Below are positions 4,549 through 27,806 of a stretch of 64,000 bases of DNA, one piece after another. The notes under the pieces are model-generated. The model had not been told where the DNA came from. It saw only the letters and a list, made by a program, of their open reading frames with translations, and ran no database searches. This stretch comes from Candidatus Tectimicrobiota bacterium. GTDB lineage: Bacteria > JACPUC01. Made by a program: the position numbers and the translations under genes. Each line of letters opens with the position of its first letter. Position 1 is the first letter of the stretch. The DNA lies in NCBI GenBank assembly GCA_016192455.1, contig JACPUC010000030.1, positions 91,454 through 155,453 on the forward strand. The letters are read 5' to 3'.

Positions 4549-5307
4549 ATGGAGGCGGAAGCGTCCTGGACACAAGCGGAGATGCTGGCCTGCATCATCG
4601 CGCGCGAGCTGCGCGACGGCGAGACCGTCGGCGTGGGAGCCGCCTCTCCCGTGCCCGCCGCGGCAGCCCTGCTGGCCCGGGCCAGCCACGCGCCGACGCT
4701 CTGCCCGCTCATCATCGGCAGCCCCGCCCACTTCCCCTTCCGGGGCGGCAGCAAGGAGTTCTTCGATTTCGCCCAGCGCGGCGGCCTGGACGTCTTCTTC
4801 CTCAGCGGCGCCCAGATCGACCTGCGCGCGAACATCAACCTCCACTGCATCGGGCCGTACGAGGCGCCCAGCGTGCGGCTGCCGGGAGCGCGCGGCTCCG
4901 CCATGCTCTACTACATGGCGCGCCGCACCATCCTCTTCCGCACCGAGCACACGCCGCGGGTGTTCGTGCCGCGCGTTGATTTCATCACCAGCCCCGGCGC
5001 CAGCTCGGCCGGCGTGTTTCGGCGCGGGGGGCCGGACAAGGTCATCACCCCGCTGCTCACCTTCCGCTTCAATCAGCAGGCGGGGGAGCTGGAGCTGGCC
5101 GGCCTGCACCCCGGCGTGAGCCTCGACGCGGCGCGCGCGCAGACCGGATTCCCGCTGCGCTGGCAAGGCGGCGAGGCGCCGCGCGTGGCGCCGCCGACGG
5201 CGGAGGAGCTGGCGGTCCTGCGCGAGCGCGTGCGCGACGAGCTCGCGCCCATCTATCCGCGCTTCGCGGCAGGCCAGATCAAGGCGCCGCACGCGGCGCA
5301 GCCCTGA
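4549..5307 (+). CDS. CoA-transferase subunit B
   Basis: Beta subunit of the same glutaconate/3-oxoacid-type CoA-transferase, 252 residues. Visible family features are the N-terminal CIIARELRDGETVGVGAASPVPAAAALLAR region, the central DVFFLSGAQIDLRANINLHCIG segment, and the late SPGASSAGVFRRGGPDKVIT stretch typical of beta subunits. The usual catalytic Glu is not obvious in the expected motif. ATG follows GGGAGGAGCGTG closely. The A and B genes are 286 nt apart, an unusually large gap for a two-subunit enzyme; I see no gene in that gap. The B subunit has no in-frame UGA. Confidence 0.85.
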   Translation: MEAEASWTQAEMLACIIARELRDGETVGVGAASPVPAAAALLARASHAPTLCPLIIGSPAHFPFRGGSKEFFDFAQRGGLDVFFLSGAQIDLRANINLHCIGPYEAPSVRLPGARGSAMLYYMARRTILFRTEHTPRVFVPRVDFITSPGASSAGVFRRGGPDKVITPLLTFRFNQQAGELELAGLHPGVSLDAARAQTGFPLRWQGGEAPRVAPPTAEELAVLRERVRDELAPIYPRFAAGQIKAPHAAQP

Positions 5308-5717
5308 GTGGCAAGGCCCTCCCCGCCCCTCCAGCCTCGACGGCTGCGGCGGCGCAGCAGCACGTAGTCCCGCCCGCCGATCTCCCTCCATCCTATCTCC
5401 ACGTCTATGGCAAGCCTTCGGCGCCGGTCGTTGGGCGGCGTTCCCCTAGGGTATCGCGAAGCAGGGCGAGGCTATTTTTCTTGCAAAACGCCAACGCCGA
5501 CACTATCATTGGGTCCTCTCTGTCAAGGACCTGCGCAGGTGGCTGGGGGCGCAGGGGCAGCGGCTGTGCCGCTCGCGACGAGGCGGAGCGGCGTGGCGGG
5601 CGATGAGGCCGTAGTCCCGCGGAGGCGCCGTGGCATGAGCTCCGGGTAAGCGACGGAGCTGTTCAACAAGCGACAAGGGTGCTGGCGAGTGCCCATCGCA
5701 GGGGAGGCGTAAAGAGG
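5308..5717. other. Intergenic region with promoter for the secreted protein
   Basis: No gene. It holds the promoter described at 5482-5510 and a leader of about 200 nt before the next start codon. Confidence 0.4.
5482..5510 (+). promoter_or_regulatory. Probable sigma-70 promoter
   Basis: TTGCAA (5482-5487), 17-nt spacer, TATCAT (5505-5510), in an AT-richer patch upstream of the secreted protein at 5718. Confidence 0.45.
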
Positions 5718-25024: not shown

Positions 25025-25612
25025 CTACTTCACCTCCGCGAGCAATTTCCTGAACAGCTTCAGCGACTCCTCGCCGTCCCACTGGCGGGGGCCGATGCCC
25101 ATGCCGACGAGGTCGCCGCGGTGGTCGATGATGAAGGTGGTGGGGGTGCCCCGCACCATGTAGAGAATCTGCGCCGCCCCCTCCGGGTCGAGGAGGATTG
25201 GGAAGGGGATGGCGTGCTTCTTTACGAAGGGGGCCACCGCCGACTTCCCCTCGCGGTCGATGGCAACGCCCACCAGCACGAACTTGTCGTTCTTCAGGAG
25301 CTCCGACAGCTTGATGAGAGAGGCACGCTCTCGCGCGCAGTAGGGTCACCAGGTGGCCCAGAAGTTGAGGAGCATCACCTTGCCCTTGAAGTCGCTCAGC
25401 TTCACCGTCTTGTCGTCGAGGTTCGGCAGCGCCACGTCCGGCGCCTGGATGCCGGGCGGCGCCGGGTGCAGACCGAGCGCGCCCAGCTCCTCCTTGTAGG
25501 GGTTCTCCGGAGTCGGCGGGGTCTCGGCGACCGCGCGCCGGCCAAGCAGGGCGAACGCGAGCAGCACGGCACACGCTACCAGAATGACGTTACGCCGCTG
25601 CACTGATGCCAT
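25025..25612 (-). CDS. TlpA/ResA-like thioredoxin, candidate selenoprotein (UGA at codon 89)
   Basis: Secreted or membrane-anchored thiol-disulfide oxidoreductase, 195 residues if the UGA at 25346-25348 is read. A signal anchor (ILVACAVLLAFALLG) is followed by the AhpC/TSA-type lead APDVALPNLDDKTVKLSDF and KGKVMLLNFWATW. Then come UGA and P-Y-C: the CxxC site has U in place of the first, attacking cysteine, giving U-P-Y-C at 89-92. Downstream cis-Pro region GTPTTFIIDHRGDLV is intact. Start ATG follows AAGGAGCATCTC. Stop is TAG. Last gene of the metal/redox cluster, 251 nt from the cupin, so it may also have its own promoter. A sequencing error is the alternative. Confidence 0.82.
25318..25348 (-). 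promoter_or_regulatory. Candidate SECIS in the TlpA-like gene
   Basis: UGA at 25346-25348, 13-nt spacer, GAGAG (25328-25332), loop CGTGC (25323-25327), CTCTC (25318-25322). G is second in the loop. The stem is 5 bp; an overlapping 6-bp GCGCGC/GCGTGC stem with a GAGA loop is the alternative. Confidence 0.45.
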
Positions 25613-25863
25613 GAGATGCTCCTTCAACCCCGTTTCGTTCCAACCCGCCCATACAGGCCCTCGACATCGACTTGCGGCGTGGCGACGCGCGCCGCGCAAG
25701 CTTGATTCCTACCGGGCAACGCGGTCAGGCGCTGAGGTATTCCCCCACCGCCGGGGCCCCGCCGCGGCAGGGGCCCGCCTCCACCTGGATGCCGCAGCGC
25801 GGCGGGCGCGTCTGCCTTCAGGATGAGCCGGCGGGGTCCGGGGCGGCGCGGTCGCCACGCGGC

Positions 25864-26457
25864 TCAATGCAGGGATTTCGGCCCCACGCGGATCACCGTC
25901 ATCATGAGGTCGTCCTCGCCGATGCTCTTGATGGTGTGCCGCCAGTTCGTGGGGACGGTGAACCAGGAACCGGCCGGAACGGCTTTCACGACCTCCCCCT
26001 TGGCATCCATCAAAAGCCCCAGGCCCTGCTCGATGTAGCAAATCTCCGTGGTGCTCATGATCCCCACATTTCCCCCGTTGGGGATGCGCGCCTTGCGGAC
26101 GGAGAACCAGACGTCATTGCCGAAGTCGACCTTGGCGATGAGCTTCGCAAAGAACTTCTCTCCCATGCCGGTCGGCTGAAAGGGGAGGGCTTCATCGGGA
26201 AGCACGACCTGCTTCTCGAAGCTGCTGATGAGGAGGTCGGGGTCGGGCACCTTGCCCATCTCCATCGTAGGCATTGGTGGTGTGCGCATCGGTTGCCCGG
26301 CGTCGGGTTGCATGCTCTGCATCGGCTGCTGCATCGGCATGGACGAGGGCGCGCCCGGTTGTCTGCGCGGCATGCTCGGCATTCCCTGCGCCAAGACGCC
26401 CGCGGAGCCGAGCCACACCACGAGCATTCCCACCACACTCGCGAGAACCCCCCTCAT
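25864..26457 (-). CDS. Secreted cupin-domain protein with Met-rich N-terminal segment
   Basis: 197 residues. A signal peptide (GVLASVVGMLVVWLGSAGVLAQ) is followed by a Met-, Gln- and Pro-rich stretch at about 24-68 (MPSMPRRQPGAPSSMPMQQ, then PMQSMQPDAGQ), a composition seen in proteins that bind soft metals. The rest is a small cupin (GNVGIMSTTEICYIEQGLGLLMD, then PAGSWFTVPTNWRHTI); the His and Glu metal ligands are only partly present. ATG at 26455-26457 follows GGAGGGGAGACC. It lies between the MerP-like and TlpA-like genes, on the same strand. No UGA inside; ends in TGA. Function unknown, possibly an extracytoplasmic metal-handling protein. Confidence 0.75.
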   Translation of the reverse strand: MRGVLASVVGMLVVWLGSAGVLAQGMPSMPRRQPGAPSSMPMQQPMQSMQPDAGQPMRTPPMPTMEMGKVPDPDLLISSFEKQVVLPDEALPFQPTGMGEKFFAKLIAKVDFGNDVWFSVRKARIPNGGNVGIMSTTEICYIEQGLGLLMDAKGEVVKAVPAGSWFTVPTNWRHTIKSIGEDDLMMTVIRVGPKSLH

Positions 26458-26508
26458 GGTCTCCCCTCCTACTGGAGCCACGGGCCGCCGCCGGCCGCGT
26501 CGCCTCGG

Positions 26509-26829
26509 TTACTCTCCGGCGGGTTTCTCCGCGGCCCCTCCGGGATCGCTGGACAGAACGCCGGCCCGGAACCCCACGGACCTGAGGGCGGCGATCATCT
26601 GCGCCGCGCCGACGCGGGCTGGGTCGAATGCCACCTCGGCCTTCGCCTCGCGCAAGCTCACCTGCGCCTTCTCAACTCCGTCGAGCCTCTCCAAGGCTCG
26701 TTGAGCGATGATCACTCACGTCCCTCACGTCAGCCCCTCGACGCGCAGGCTCAGGTTCTCCGCCAGCGCGGCGGCGCTGCCGAGACCGAGGATGCTGGCC
26801 GCCAAGAGCAGCGTGACCCAGGTGCGCAT
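26509..26829 (-). CDS. MerP-like periplasmic heavy-metal-binding protein, candidate selenoprotein (two UGA codons, U-G-T-U)
   Basis: A 106-residue HMA-domain protein with a signal peptide (MRTWVTLLLAASILGLGSAA). The mature start NLSLRVEGLT is followed by UGA-G-T-UGA-V at codons 35 and 38 (26725-26727 and 26716-26718), exactly where HMA domains carry G-M-T-C-x-x-C. Downstream AQRALERLDGVEKAQVSLRE and ALRSVGFRA are ordinary MerP/Atx1-like fold. The protein has no cysteine at all, so both metal ligands would be selenocysteine. Starts 2 nt after the zinc-ribbon stop and ends in TAA. One hairpin downstream could serve both UGAs. Family clear; Sec inferred. Confidence 0.82.
26682..26727 (-). promoter_or_regulatory. 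Candidate SECIS serving two UGAs in the MerP-like gene
   Basis: After the second UGA (26716-26718) comes a 15-nt spacer, then CGAGCCT (26694-26700), loop TGGAG and AGGCTCG (26682-26688): a perfect 7-bp stem with G second in the loop, the same layout as in the glutaredoxin-like gene. The first UGA lies 9 nt further upstream. Confidence 0.55.
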
Positions 26830-26831
26830 GC

Positions 26832-27116
26832 TCACTCCTCCCTCTCCAGGGCGAAGACGCCGTAGGCATGCAGCAGGCGAAACGTCTCGCCGCAGTGCTC
26901 GAGGCGGTCGCCCGCGGCGGCCTCATCCGGCAGGGTGAGCATGGTCCCGCACGCCGGACAGCTCGCGCGCTTGACGATCATGAGGCCGTACCGACCGTGT
27001 CGCTCCGAAACTCGGAACAGGAGCCCGGCTCAGTTGGCGCACTCGAAGCCCTCGCCCGGGCGCGCCCGCGGCCCAAGCTCGACCTCTTGCCCTCAGCCAG
27101 GACAGAGCGCCTTCAT
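26832..27116 (-). CDS. Double zinc-ribbon protein, candidate selenoprotein (two UGA codons, C-x-x-U)
   Basis: A 94-residue cytoplasmic protein with two treble-clef/zinc-ribbon-like units. Unit 1 has C-P-G-UGA at codons 5-8 and C-A-N-UGA at 26-29, where zinc ribbons have C-x-x-C. Unit 2 has C-P-A-C at 53-56 and H-C at 74-75. UGAs are at 27093-27095 and 27030-27032. The frame, Shine-Dalgarno (GGGAGGCGGC then ATG), and tight junctions to neighbours (31 nt from the glutaredoxin-like gene, 2 nt to the MerP-like gene) support one intact gene. Its own stop is TGA. Sec in a structural zinc site would be very unusual; a UGA read as Cys is an alternative. Not a family I can name. Confidence 0.72.
27001..27032 (-). 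promoter_or_regulatory. Candidate SECIS after the second UGA of the zinc-ribbon gene
   Basis: UGA at 27030-27032, 10-nt spacer, TGTTCCGA (27012-27019), loop GTT, TCGGAGCG (27001-27008): 8 bp including two G-U pairs, G first in the loop. Confidence 0.45.
27054..27095 (-). promoter_or_regulatory. Weaker candidate SECIS after the first UGA of the zinc-ribbon gene
   Basis: UGA at 27093-27095. A 7-bp stem with one bulge and a CGCG loop can form at 27054-27072, 20 nt downstream. The region is very GC-rich, so chance pairing is likely. Confidence 0.25.
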
Positions 27117-27147
27117 GCCGCCTCCCGATCAGGTGGGTACGTTGAAG

Positions 27148-27381
27148 CTACAGGTGCAGGAGCTGCTTCAGCCGCCCCAGGTCGAAGCCCACGACCACCT
27201 CGTCGTCCACTGTGATCACCGGCACGGCAAGCCGACCCGTCTTCGCCTTCAGCTCGGCGATGGCGCCTTGGTCCGCTTCGACGTTCCGCTCCACGAAGGC
27301 GATCTGGTTCTGTGAAAGGAACTCTTTCACCTGTTTGCAGGGCCTTCACGTAGGGCTGGTAAAGACCATGACGTTGGGCAT
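27148..27381 (-). CDS. Glutaredoxin-like protein, candidate selenoprotein (UGA at codon 12)
   Basis: A 77-residue thioredoxin-fold protein of the NrdH/YruB-like glutaredoxin type. MPNVMVFTSPT is followed by UGA-R-P-C-KQVKEFLSQ, so the C-P-x-C site is U-R-P-C with UGA at 27346-27348. The cis-Pro segment AVPVITVDDEVVVGFD and the C-terminal LGRLKQLLHL are intact. ATG at 27379-27381 follows GAGGGAGAACG. The TAG stop is distinct from the internal UGA. Second gene of the cluster, 41 nt after the merT-like stop. It should deliver electrons by thiol (selenol) exchange in the cytoplasm. Family assignment is firm. Confidence 0.83.
27312..27348 (-). promoter_or_regulatory. Candidate SECIS in the glutaredoxin-like gene
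   Basis: UGA at 27346-27348, 15-nt spacer, GTGAAAG (27324-27330), loop AGTTC, CTTTCAC (27312-27318): perfect 7-bp stem, G second in the loop. This stem is AT-containing and so less likely by chance than the GC-rich ones. Confidence 0.6.
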
Positions 27382-27422
27382 CGTTCTCCCTCCCTATGAA
27401 TTACGGCTGGCGAGGCAGATCC

Positions 27423-27806
27423 TCAGTTCATCGCGCCTTGCAGCAGCGCGGCGGTTGCGTCCGGGAAGAGATCGAGCGCCAGCGCCGCCAGCAGCGCCAG
27501 GGTGGCGCCCAGCAGCATAACGAGGTTGAGGCGCGCCCCGATGAAGCGGCATGCCACCGCGCGGCAGCGTCGGCGCTCCCTGAAGTATAACGCATACGAG
27601 CCAAGAACTCCGAACACGCCGGCTGGCAGGAAGATGGAACGGTACTGCATCGTCGTGCCCATGAACGCCCCTGTCCCAAGCCCCGTGAGCACGACGAGAA
27701 GCGGCAGGACGCAGCAGAGCGAGGCGACGAAGGCCGCCCCTAGGCTCACCGCGCCCACTCCGAAAGCGCGCAGGCACTCTCGACCGGCATGCAGGGATAC
27801 TCTCAT
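27423..27806 (-). CDS. MerT-like mercuric-ion transport membrane protein
   Basis: A 127-residue inner-membrane protein with three hydrophobic segments. The first carries the MerT-type vicinal Cys pair (FVASLCCVLPLLVVLTGLG). A cytoplasmic loop holds RRRCRAVACRF with two more Cys, as in MerT, which passes Hg(II) from MerP to the cytoplasm. ATG at 27804-27806 follows AGGGGACG. First gene of the cluster. It uses Cys codons throughout, so Sec is not substituted everywhere. Ends in TGA; I see no reason to read through. No merR or merA gene is in the window. Confidence 0.78.
   Translation of the reverse strand: MRVSLHAGRECLRAFGVGAVSLGAAFVASLCCVLPLLVVLTGLGTGAFMGTTMQYRSIFLPAGVFGVLGSYALYFRERRRCRAVACRFIGARLNLVMLLGATLALLAALALDLFPDATAALLQGAMN

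Follow-up and report, generated by a model that had tools for sequence, protein, structure and literature searches.

The window analysed here is a stretch of 64,000 nucleotides from a Candidatus Tectimicrobiota bacterium (assembly GCA_016192455.1, contig JACPUC010000030.1), in which six co-directional genes run on the minus strand from position 27806 to 25025. When TGA is translated as selenocysteine (Sec, U), four of the six carry in-frame UGA codons, six in all. Reading of these UGAs as Sec is strongly supported and is settled by comparison with relatives, and the cluster is probably a Sec-enriched operon of the mer type, i.e. one for uptake and detoxification of Hg(II). The recoded translation agrees exactly with the gene count, strand and Cys-position UGAs given in a preliminary description made from the letters alone, as well as with its finding that the MerT-like and methionine-rich cupin genes carry none. 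In order of transcription the genes are:

27423..27806, minus strand: MerT-like inner-membrane protein, 127 residues, no Sec; weak MerT match, with CC in the first transmembrane segment and RRRC....C after it
27148..27381, minus strand: glutaredoxin-like selenoprotein, 77 residues, Sec12 in a UxxC motif (T-U-R-P-C); PF00462 at 64.2 bits, over cut-off
26832..27116, minus strand: tandem LysW-like zinc-ribbon selenoprotein, 94 residues, Sec8 (CPGU) and Sec29 (CANU), then C-P-A-C and H-C
26509..26829, minus strand: MerP-like periplasmic HMA selenoprotein, 106 residues, Sec35 and Sec38 (G-L-T-U-G-T-U); NF041115 over cut-off
25864..26457, minus strand: Met-rich exported cupin, 197 residues, no Sec; relatives 59% and 63% identical
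25025..25612, minus strand: TlpA/ResA-like exported thiol oxidoreductase selenoprotein, 195 residues, Sec89 (W-A-T-W-U-P-Y-C); PF00578 at 96.5 bits

The intergenic gaps measure 41, 31, 2, 51 and 251 bases in the same order, the longest preceding tlpA, and purine-rich stretches resembling ribosome-binding sites lie upstream of the gene starts. Each of the six UGAs occupies a Cys column of its own family in the alignments and UGA/Cys tables. Profile searches with the window proteins find the domains continuing unbroken across every UGA, third-position GC beyond the UGAs remains 0.82-0.92, and the same columns hold UGA or a Cys codon in other phyla, all of which bears out the earlier judgement that chance nonsense mutation is unlikely. 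Within this operon UGA also genuinely terminates three genes, those for the MerT-like protein, the zinc ribbon and the cupin, and therefore it has not been reassigned wholesale in this organism.

The source genome (G000; 88% complete and the sole representative of its little-sampled phylum in our comparison) has selA, selB, selC and selD, so that the objection anticipated in the preliminary description, a lack of Sec machinery, falls away. SelB (C23:40655-42544) scores 366 bits over its curated cut-off and has SelA directly upstream, the tRNA-Sec scores 75.5 bits and has the anticodon UCA, and the active-site codon of SelD is itself an in-frame UGA (VAGUAAKLGPGD). The Sec-containing SelD position lies at about 5850 of locus L065 (G000:C3:190907).

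Relatives of the cluster were drawn from domain-wide genome samples plus one further phylum (that of G137). At the Sec column of the glutaredoxin UxxC motif all 23 loci, the window's included, carry UGA, and in 21 of them the tandem zinc ribbon lies next to the glutaredoxin. In the latter, UGA and TGC/TGT replace each other at exactly two columns, those of window Sec8 and Sec29; on a tree of 21 loci column 8 must have changed at least 6 times and column 29 at least 4 times, although the deep branches are mostly weakly supported and close tips that differ (e.g. L109/L110) supply much of the count. The TlpA-like protein likewise occurs with Sec (WUPSC, in L101) and with Cys (in L104). Homologues with Cys and with Sec at the same sites, which the preliminary description had suggested seeking, thus exist. 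Downstream of the UGA, the ratio of nonsynonymous to synonymous substitution rates (dN/dS) in congener pairs from two genera is 0.08-0.25 overall (glutaredoxin 0.084 and 0.091, MerP 0.255 and 0.165, thioredoxin-like protein 0.21), while MerT, a gene free of internal UGA, gives 0.21-0.28; judged from these ratios, the codons after the UGA are under purifying selection.

Five hairpins in the window that resemble selenocysteine insertion sequence (SECIS) elements carry a G near the start of the apical loop, and taken together they are lower in energy than in-frame codons picked at random from these genes (p 4e-4). They include:

27312..27330, minus strand: SECIS-like hairpin past the glutaredoxin UGA, apical loop 22 nt downstream; covariation
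27054..27078, minus strand: SECIS-like hairpin past zinc-ribbon Sec8; -12.1 kcal/mol, with 0.6% of control codons as low
27001..27019, minus strand: SECIS-like hairpin past zinc-ribbon Sec29; -8.6 kcal/mol
26682..26700, minus strand: SECIS-like hairpin past MerP Sec38, perhaps shared with Sec35; -11.1 kcal/mol, codon-shuffle p 0.009

The placement of the glutaredoxin hairpin is nearly constant in relatives (apical loop 22-23 nt past the UGA), and its covariation among 20 distinct sequences is 0.263 as against 0.137 +/- 0.019 after shuffling (0 of 500 shuffles), far above slid controls as well. Hairpins of the relatives are stronger than those of codon shuffles, with Fisher p values of 3e-12, 2e-9 and 4e-6 that are overstated by the relatedness of the rows. 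Mean energies at zinc-ribbon column 29 are -12.3 and -9.5 kcal/mol for Sec copies, against -4.1 and -1.0 kcal/mol for Cys copies, the rows again being related and not independent.

It is because of the machinery, the Cys/Sec interchange, the SECIS-like hairpins with covariation and the purifying selection past the UGA that we read the codons as Sec at metal and redox sites, as had been proposed. The alternative, that the UGAs arose by nonsense mutation or assembly error, or that UGA has become a sense codon here, is hardly conceivable: in-frame UGAs fall on Cys columns only and recur in independent genomes, UGA also ends three genes of the operon, and a tRNA-Sec and SelABD are present. Cross-genome recurrence, Cys/Sec interchange and dN/dS together exclude it.

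The individual proteins differ in how closely they fit curated families. The MerP-like protein belongs to NF041115, the "UxxU metal-binding (seleno)protein" (108.5 bits, cut-off 95). The glutaredoxin is over the cut-off of PF00462 and below that of TIGR02196, and does not reach that of Uxx-star (55.0 bits, cut-off 66); for the TlpA-like protein both PF00578 (96.5 bits) and PF08534 are over cut-off. Four aligned sequences of the MerT-like protein all keep C31, C32, C81 and C86, which make up the CC of the first membrane segment and a further pair of Cys; a sequence search returned no solved structure for MerT. The cupin matches no curated family.

The zinc ribbon reaches the cut-off of no NCBIfam or Pfam family and has no match among PLSDB plasmids. 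Its nearest model is the LysW-like NF041070 (E 8.8e-13, below cut-off), and a LysW-like ribbon is weakly matched by all nine aligned members. In an AlphaFold model built from the single sequence (pLDDT 83.5) the two halves compare with LysW at Z 7.2 and 7.1, which is modest, being under 8, and unrelated rows score from Z 3.9 downward. The "Dual CXXC small protein" NF041197 was considered and gave no match. A LysW-type carrier was rejected as well: the hallmark of these carriers is a C-terminal EDWGE with the conjugating Glu, which is absent here, the protein ending in ALEREE.

The core of the cluster, referred to below as the module, is present in at least four phyla as judged from the sequences, because the phyla of G000, G363 and G137 are each listed whole and further families fall outside all three. 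The zinc ribbon was found in 8 of 386 sampled genomes and, in the phylum of G137, in 14 of 18, each time with the Sec glutaredoxin beside it; several loci of that phylum have MerR, MerT, MerF or a UxxxU MerP inside about 3 kb. A scan of genome contigs with MerP returned two loci, one of which (L021) has only an unrelated Cys HMA protein.

In many loci the module adjoins MerR, MerF, MerT and UxxU MerP, and in two families a true mercuric reductase is close by. Locus L076 encodes a MerR-type regulator (with about equal ZntR and MerR scores), MerT, the Sec glutaredoxin, an all-Cys zinc ribbon, a MerP with GMSUGSU and, about 4 kb on, a MerA with a frame broken in the assembly, which keeps the C-terminal CC of mercuric reductases. 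L077 and L098 share MerF (87.4 bits, cut-off 50), zinc ribbon, Sec glutaredoxin, MerT, a MerP with GMVUGAU and a UGVC thioredoxin-like protein, and L077 opens with an ArsR-type, CmtR-like regulator. L099 combines the Sec glutaredoxin, zinc ribbon, MerF and MerT with two UPFTU (UxxxU) MerP proteins, a glutathione-reductase/MerA-like enzyme and MerR. At L104/L107, where no zinc ribbon was matched, MerF, several MerPs (one with CEKU), the Sec glutaredoxin, MerT and a Cys TlpA are followed about 2 kb beyond TlpA by a MerA over cut-off, the glutaredoxin, MerT, Sec MerP and TlpA all lying within about 2-5 kb of it. MerA occurs near the cassette in G363, G365 and G097, and MerR-type genes also at L102, L111, L114 and L117-L120.

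Some further proteins were seen in these surroundings. The thioredoxin-like protein (SPTUGVC) that closes the cassette at L077:8091-8399 and L098:7564-7872 has no NCBIfam match. Similar-looking exported proteins, which we take to be perhaps DUF302, stand toward MerA at L076:10835-11611 and L080:12592-13098. In another lineage, L059:4648-5031 and 5123-5491 encode a tandem lipoprotein-like HMA pair with GMTUxxC. The row at L060:1560-4198 comprises a CsoR-like regulator, the same kind of cupin as in the window, a DsbD/ArsG-like membrane protein, a two-part HMA selenoprotein (GMSUPFC) and a NikL-like protein.

MerP and MerT relay Hg(II) through Cys pairs, selenolates hold Hg(II) tighter than thiolates, and TlpA/ResA proteins reduce exported disulfides. 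On this background the exported UxxU MerP may capture a soft cation, most likely Hg(II), via its two selenolates, while the Sec TlpA would hold the selenol pair reduced. Import would fall to the MerT-like protein, by way of its CC and C....C pairs; the cytosolic UxxC glutaredoxin may strip it off thiols or pass it on, and the 2-Cys/2-Sec zinc ribbon might buffer or deliver it in the cytosol. Where MerA is present the metal would be reduced; with no linked MerA here, it would more likely be sequestered, or reduced by an unlinked enzyme. What the sequence shows is the Sec codons, their Cys counterparts, a recurring association with mer genes and the glutaredoxin SECIS hairpin; which metal is moved, which way, and in what sequence it changes hands are inferred. 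The preliminary description had suggested that the cluster moves a soft metal across the membrane and manages selenol/thiol redox. That outline fits, and we have sharpened it to mer-type Hg(II) since relatives adjoin curated MerF, true MerA and MerR- or ArsR-type metalloregulators; for the window copy the metal itself is still inferred, there being no linked MerA.

Several observations weigh against a mercury operon built on Sec, or against parts of it. No MerA over the curated cut-off was found in the 88%-complete source genome, and no metalloregulator was seen adjoining the window copy of the operon. The MerT match is weak (26.5 bits, cut-off 150; PF02411 17.0, cut-off 32.9). No mer genes surround the module in 18 kb of L100 or 10 kb of L101, and in the stretch examined of the g250 loci the glutaredoxin and zinc ribbon likewise lack mer genes around them. 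The relatives of the cupin have CsoR-like, P-type-ATPase-like or HMA genes in their vicinity, a setting in keeping with copper or other soft metals. The one 59% identical adjoins a CsoR-like regulator and a Sec MerP (L060), and the one 63% identical adjoins an HMA protein and is itself about 5 kb from a UxxU MerP (L075). As to the recoding signals, hairpin energy at zinc-ribbon column 8 does not tell Sec from Cys copies, the SECIS candidate of TlpA is weak, and none of the window hairpins belongs to MerP Sec35 alone. A MerA/lipoamide-dehydrogenase-like FAD oxidoreductase whose redox pair has Sec in second place (CVNSGU) is encoded elsewhere in the source genome, unlinked to the operon (L105:9160-10482; G000:C22:15159-16484). 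It is the best MerA hit of this genome; considered as the missing MerA, it was rejected, as it has no C-terminal CC and its best model match is an FAD oxidoreductase.

Some of these points would suit an operon rich in Sec that handles a different soft metal or a metalloid (Cu(I), Ag(I), Cd(II) or As(III)), with the MerT- and MerP-like proteins serving in import or export of the copper type. CopZ and CopA models do match the MerP domain, a RicR/CsoR-like regulator and HMA or P-type-ATPase-like genes accompany the cupin relatives, and the regulators of L076 and L077 resemble ZntR and CmtR to the degree given above. Yet the UxxU MerP model outscores every CopZ model, and relatives have MerF over cut-off and MerA that is either over cut-off or retains the C-terminal CC, so that we consider another metal unlikely, while taking it more seriously than any other alternative. 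An operon against selenol/thiol redox stress, in which Sec is the catalytic nucleophile and metal binding is secondary, would account for the Sec glutaredoxin, the Sec TlpA, the UGVC thioredoxin-like protein of L077 and L098, and the L100, L101 and g250 loci with their glutaredoxin and zinc ribbon but no mer genes nearby. It appears quite improbable, given that the HMA and zinc-ribbon ligands are metal sites and not redox catalysts, and that MerT, MerF and MerR recur in many loci.

The cluster resembles mer operons (merR, merT, merP, merF, merA) in combining a MerT-like and a MerP-like protein, to which relatives add MerF, MerA and MerR-type regulators; it differs in having Sec at the MerP metal site, an extra Sec glutaredoxin, Sec zinc ribbon, Sec TlpA and cupin, and no linked merA. 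The MerP-like gene is simply a member of NF041115, the selenoprotein also named "putative mercuric reductase", whereas the operon around it was not found described. With the known Sec glutaredoxins (PF00462 UxxC; Uxx-star) the window protein shares the domain and the UxxC motif, but it is below the TIGR02196 and Uxx-star cut-offs and belongs to a subfamily that for the most part accompanies the zinc ribbon. Both halves of the ribbon resemble LysW/ArgW amino-group carrier ribbons in sequence and predicted fold; unlike these, it has two in tandem, Sec as putative metal ligand and no C-terminal EDWGE. The SAO and Tso operons, as described in a review, likewise combine several selenoproteins with proposed metal-related functions (PMC13188914), whereas the best families here are MerT, MerP, glutaredoxin and LysW-like rather than the Tso or Sao models.

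The same 2026 review lists a MerT-like selenoprotein (C/SxxU), a UxxU metal-binding protein, UxxC glutaredoxins and a Prx-like UxxC protein, names the grd, prd, frh/hdr, SAO and Tso selenoprotein operons, and has FmdB as its sole entry of the zinc-ribbon kind, with no LysW and no cupin entry (PMC13188914). The "putative mercuric reductase" or UxxU metal-binding selenoprotein is in its tables and in those of PMC9312934, and MerP selenoproteins were reported from ocean data in 2008 (PMC2398784). No description of the zinc-ribbon selenoprotein or of the conserved operon was found in the literature covered, which includes the papers cited above. The preliminary description knew of no described operon of this kind; the zinc ribbon and the conserved operon do look new, which we hold provisionally, while most of the component families (UxxU MerP, Sec glutaredoxin and Sec TlpA/Prx-like proteins) are already listed as selenoproteins.

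The usual explanation for selenocysteine, with few exceptions, is superior redox catalysis. In this mercury-type operon it is found time and again, across several phyla, at the positions of metal ligands. That this is a dedicated selenium-based mercury system common to these phyla, in which the metal is passed among the MerP UxxU, glutaredoxin UxxC and 2-Cys/2-Sec ribbon sites and Sec serves mainly as ligand and not as redox catalyst, has in our view about an even chance of being right; if so, the zinc ribbon would count as a new family of selenoproteins. The Cys/Sec switches between close relatives at its two positions provide natural pairs with which the question "why Sec?" becomes directly testable. 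Standard gene callers, where they make no provision for recoded UGA, would shorten these proteins, and the system may thus be under-annotated. Selenium supply would be linked to mercury handling in environmental bacteria.

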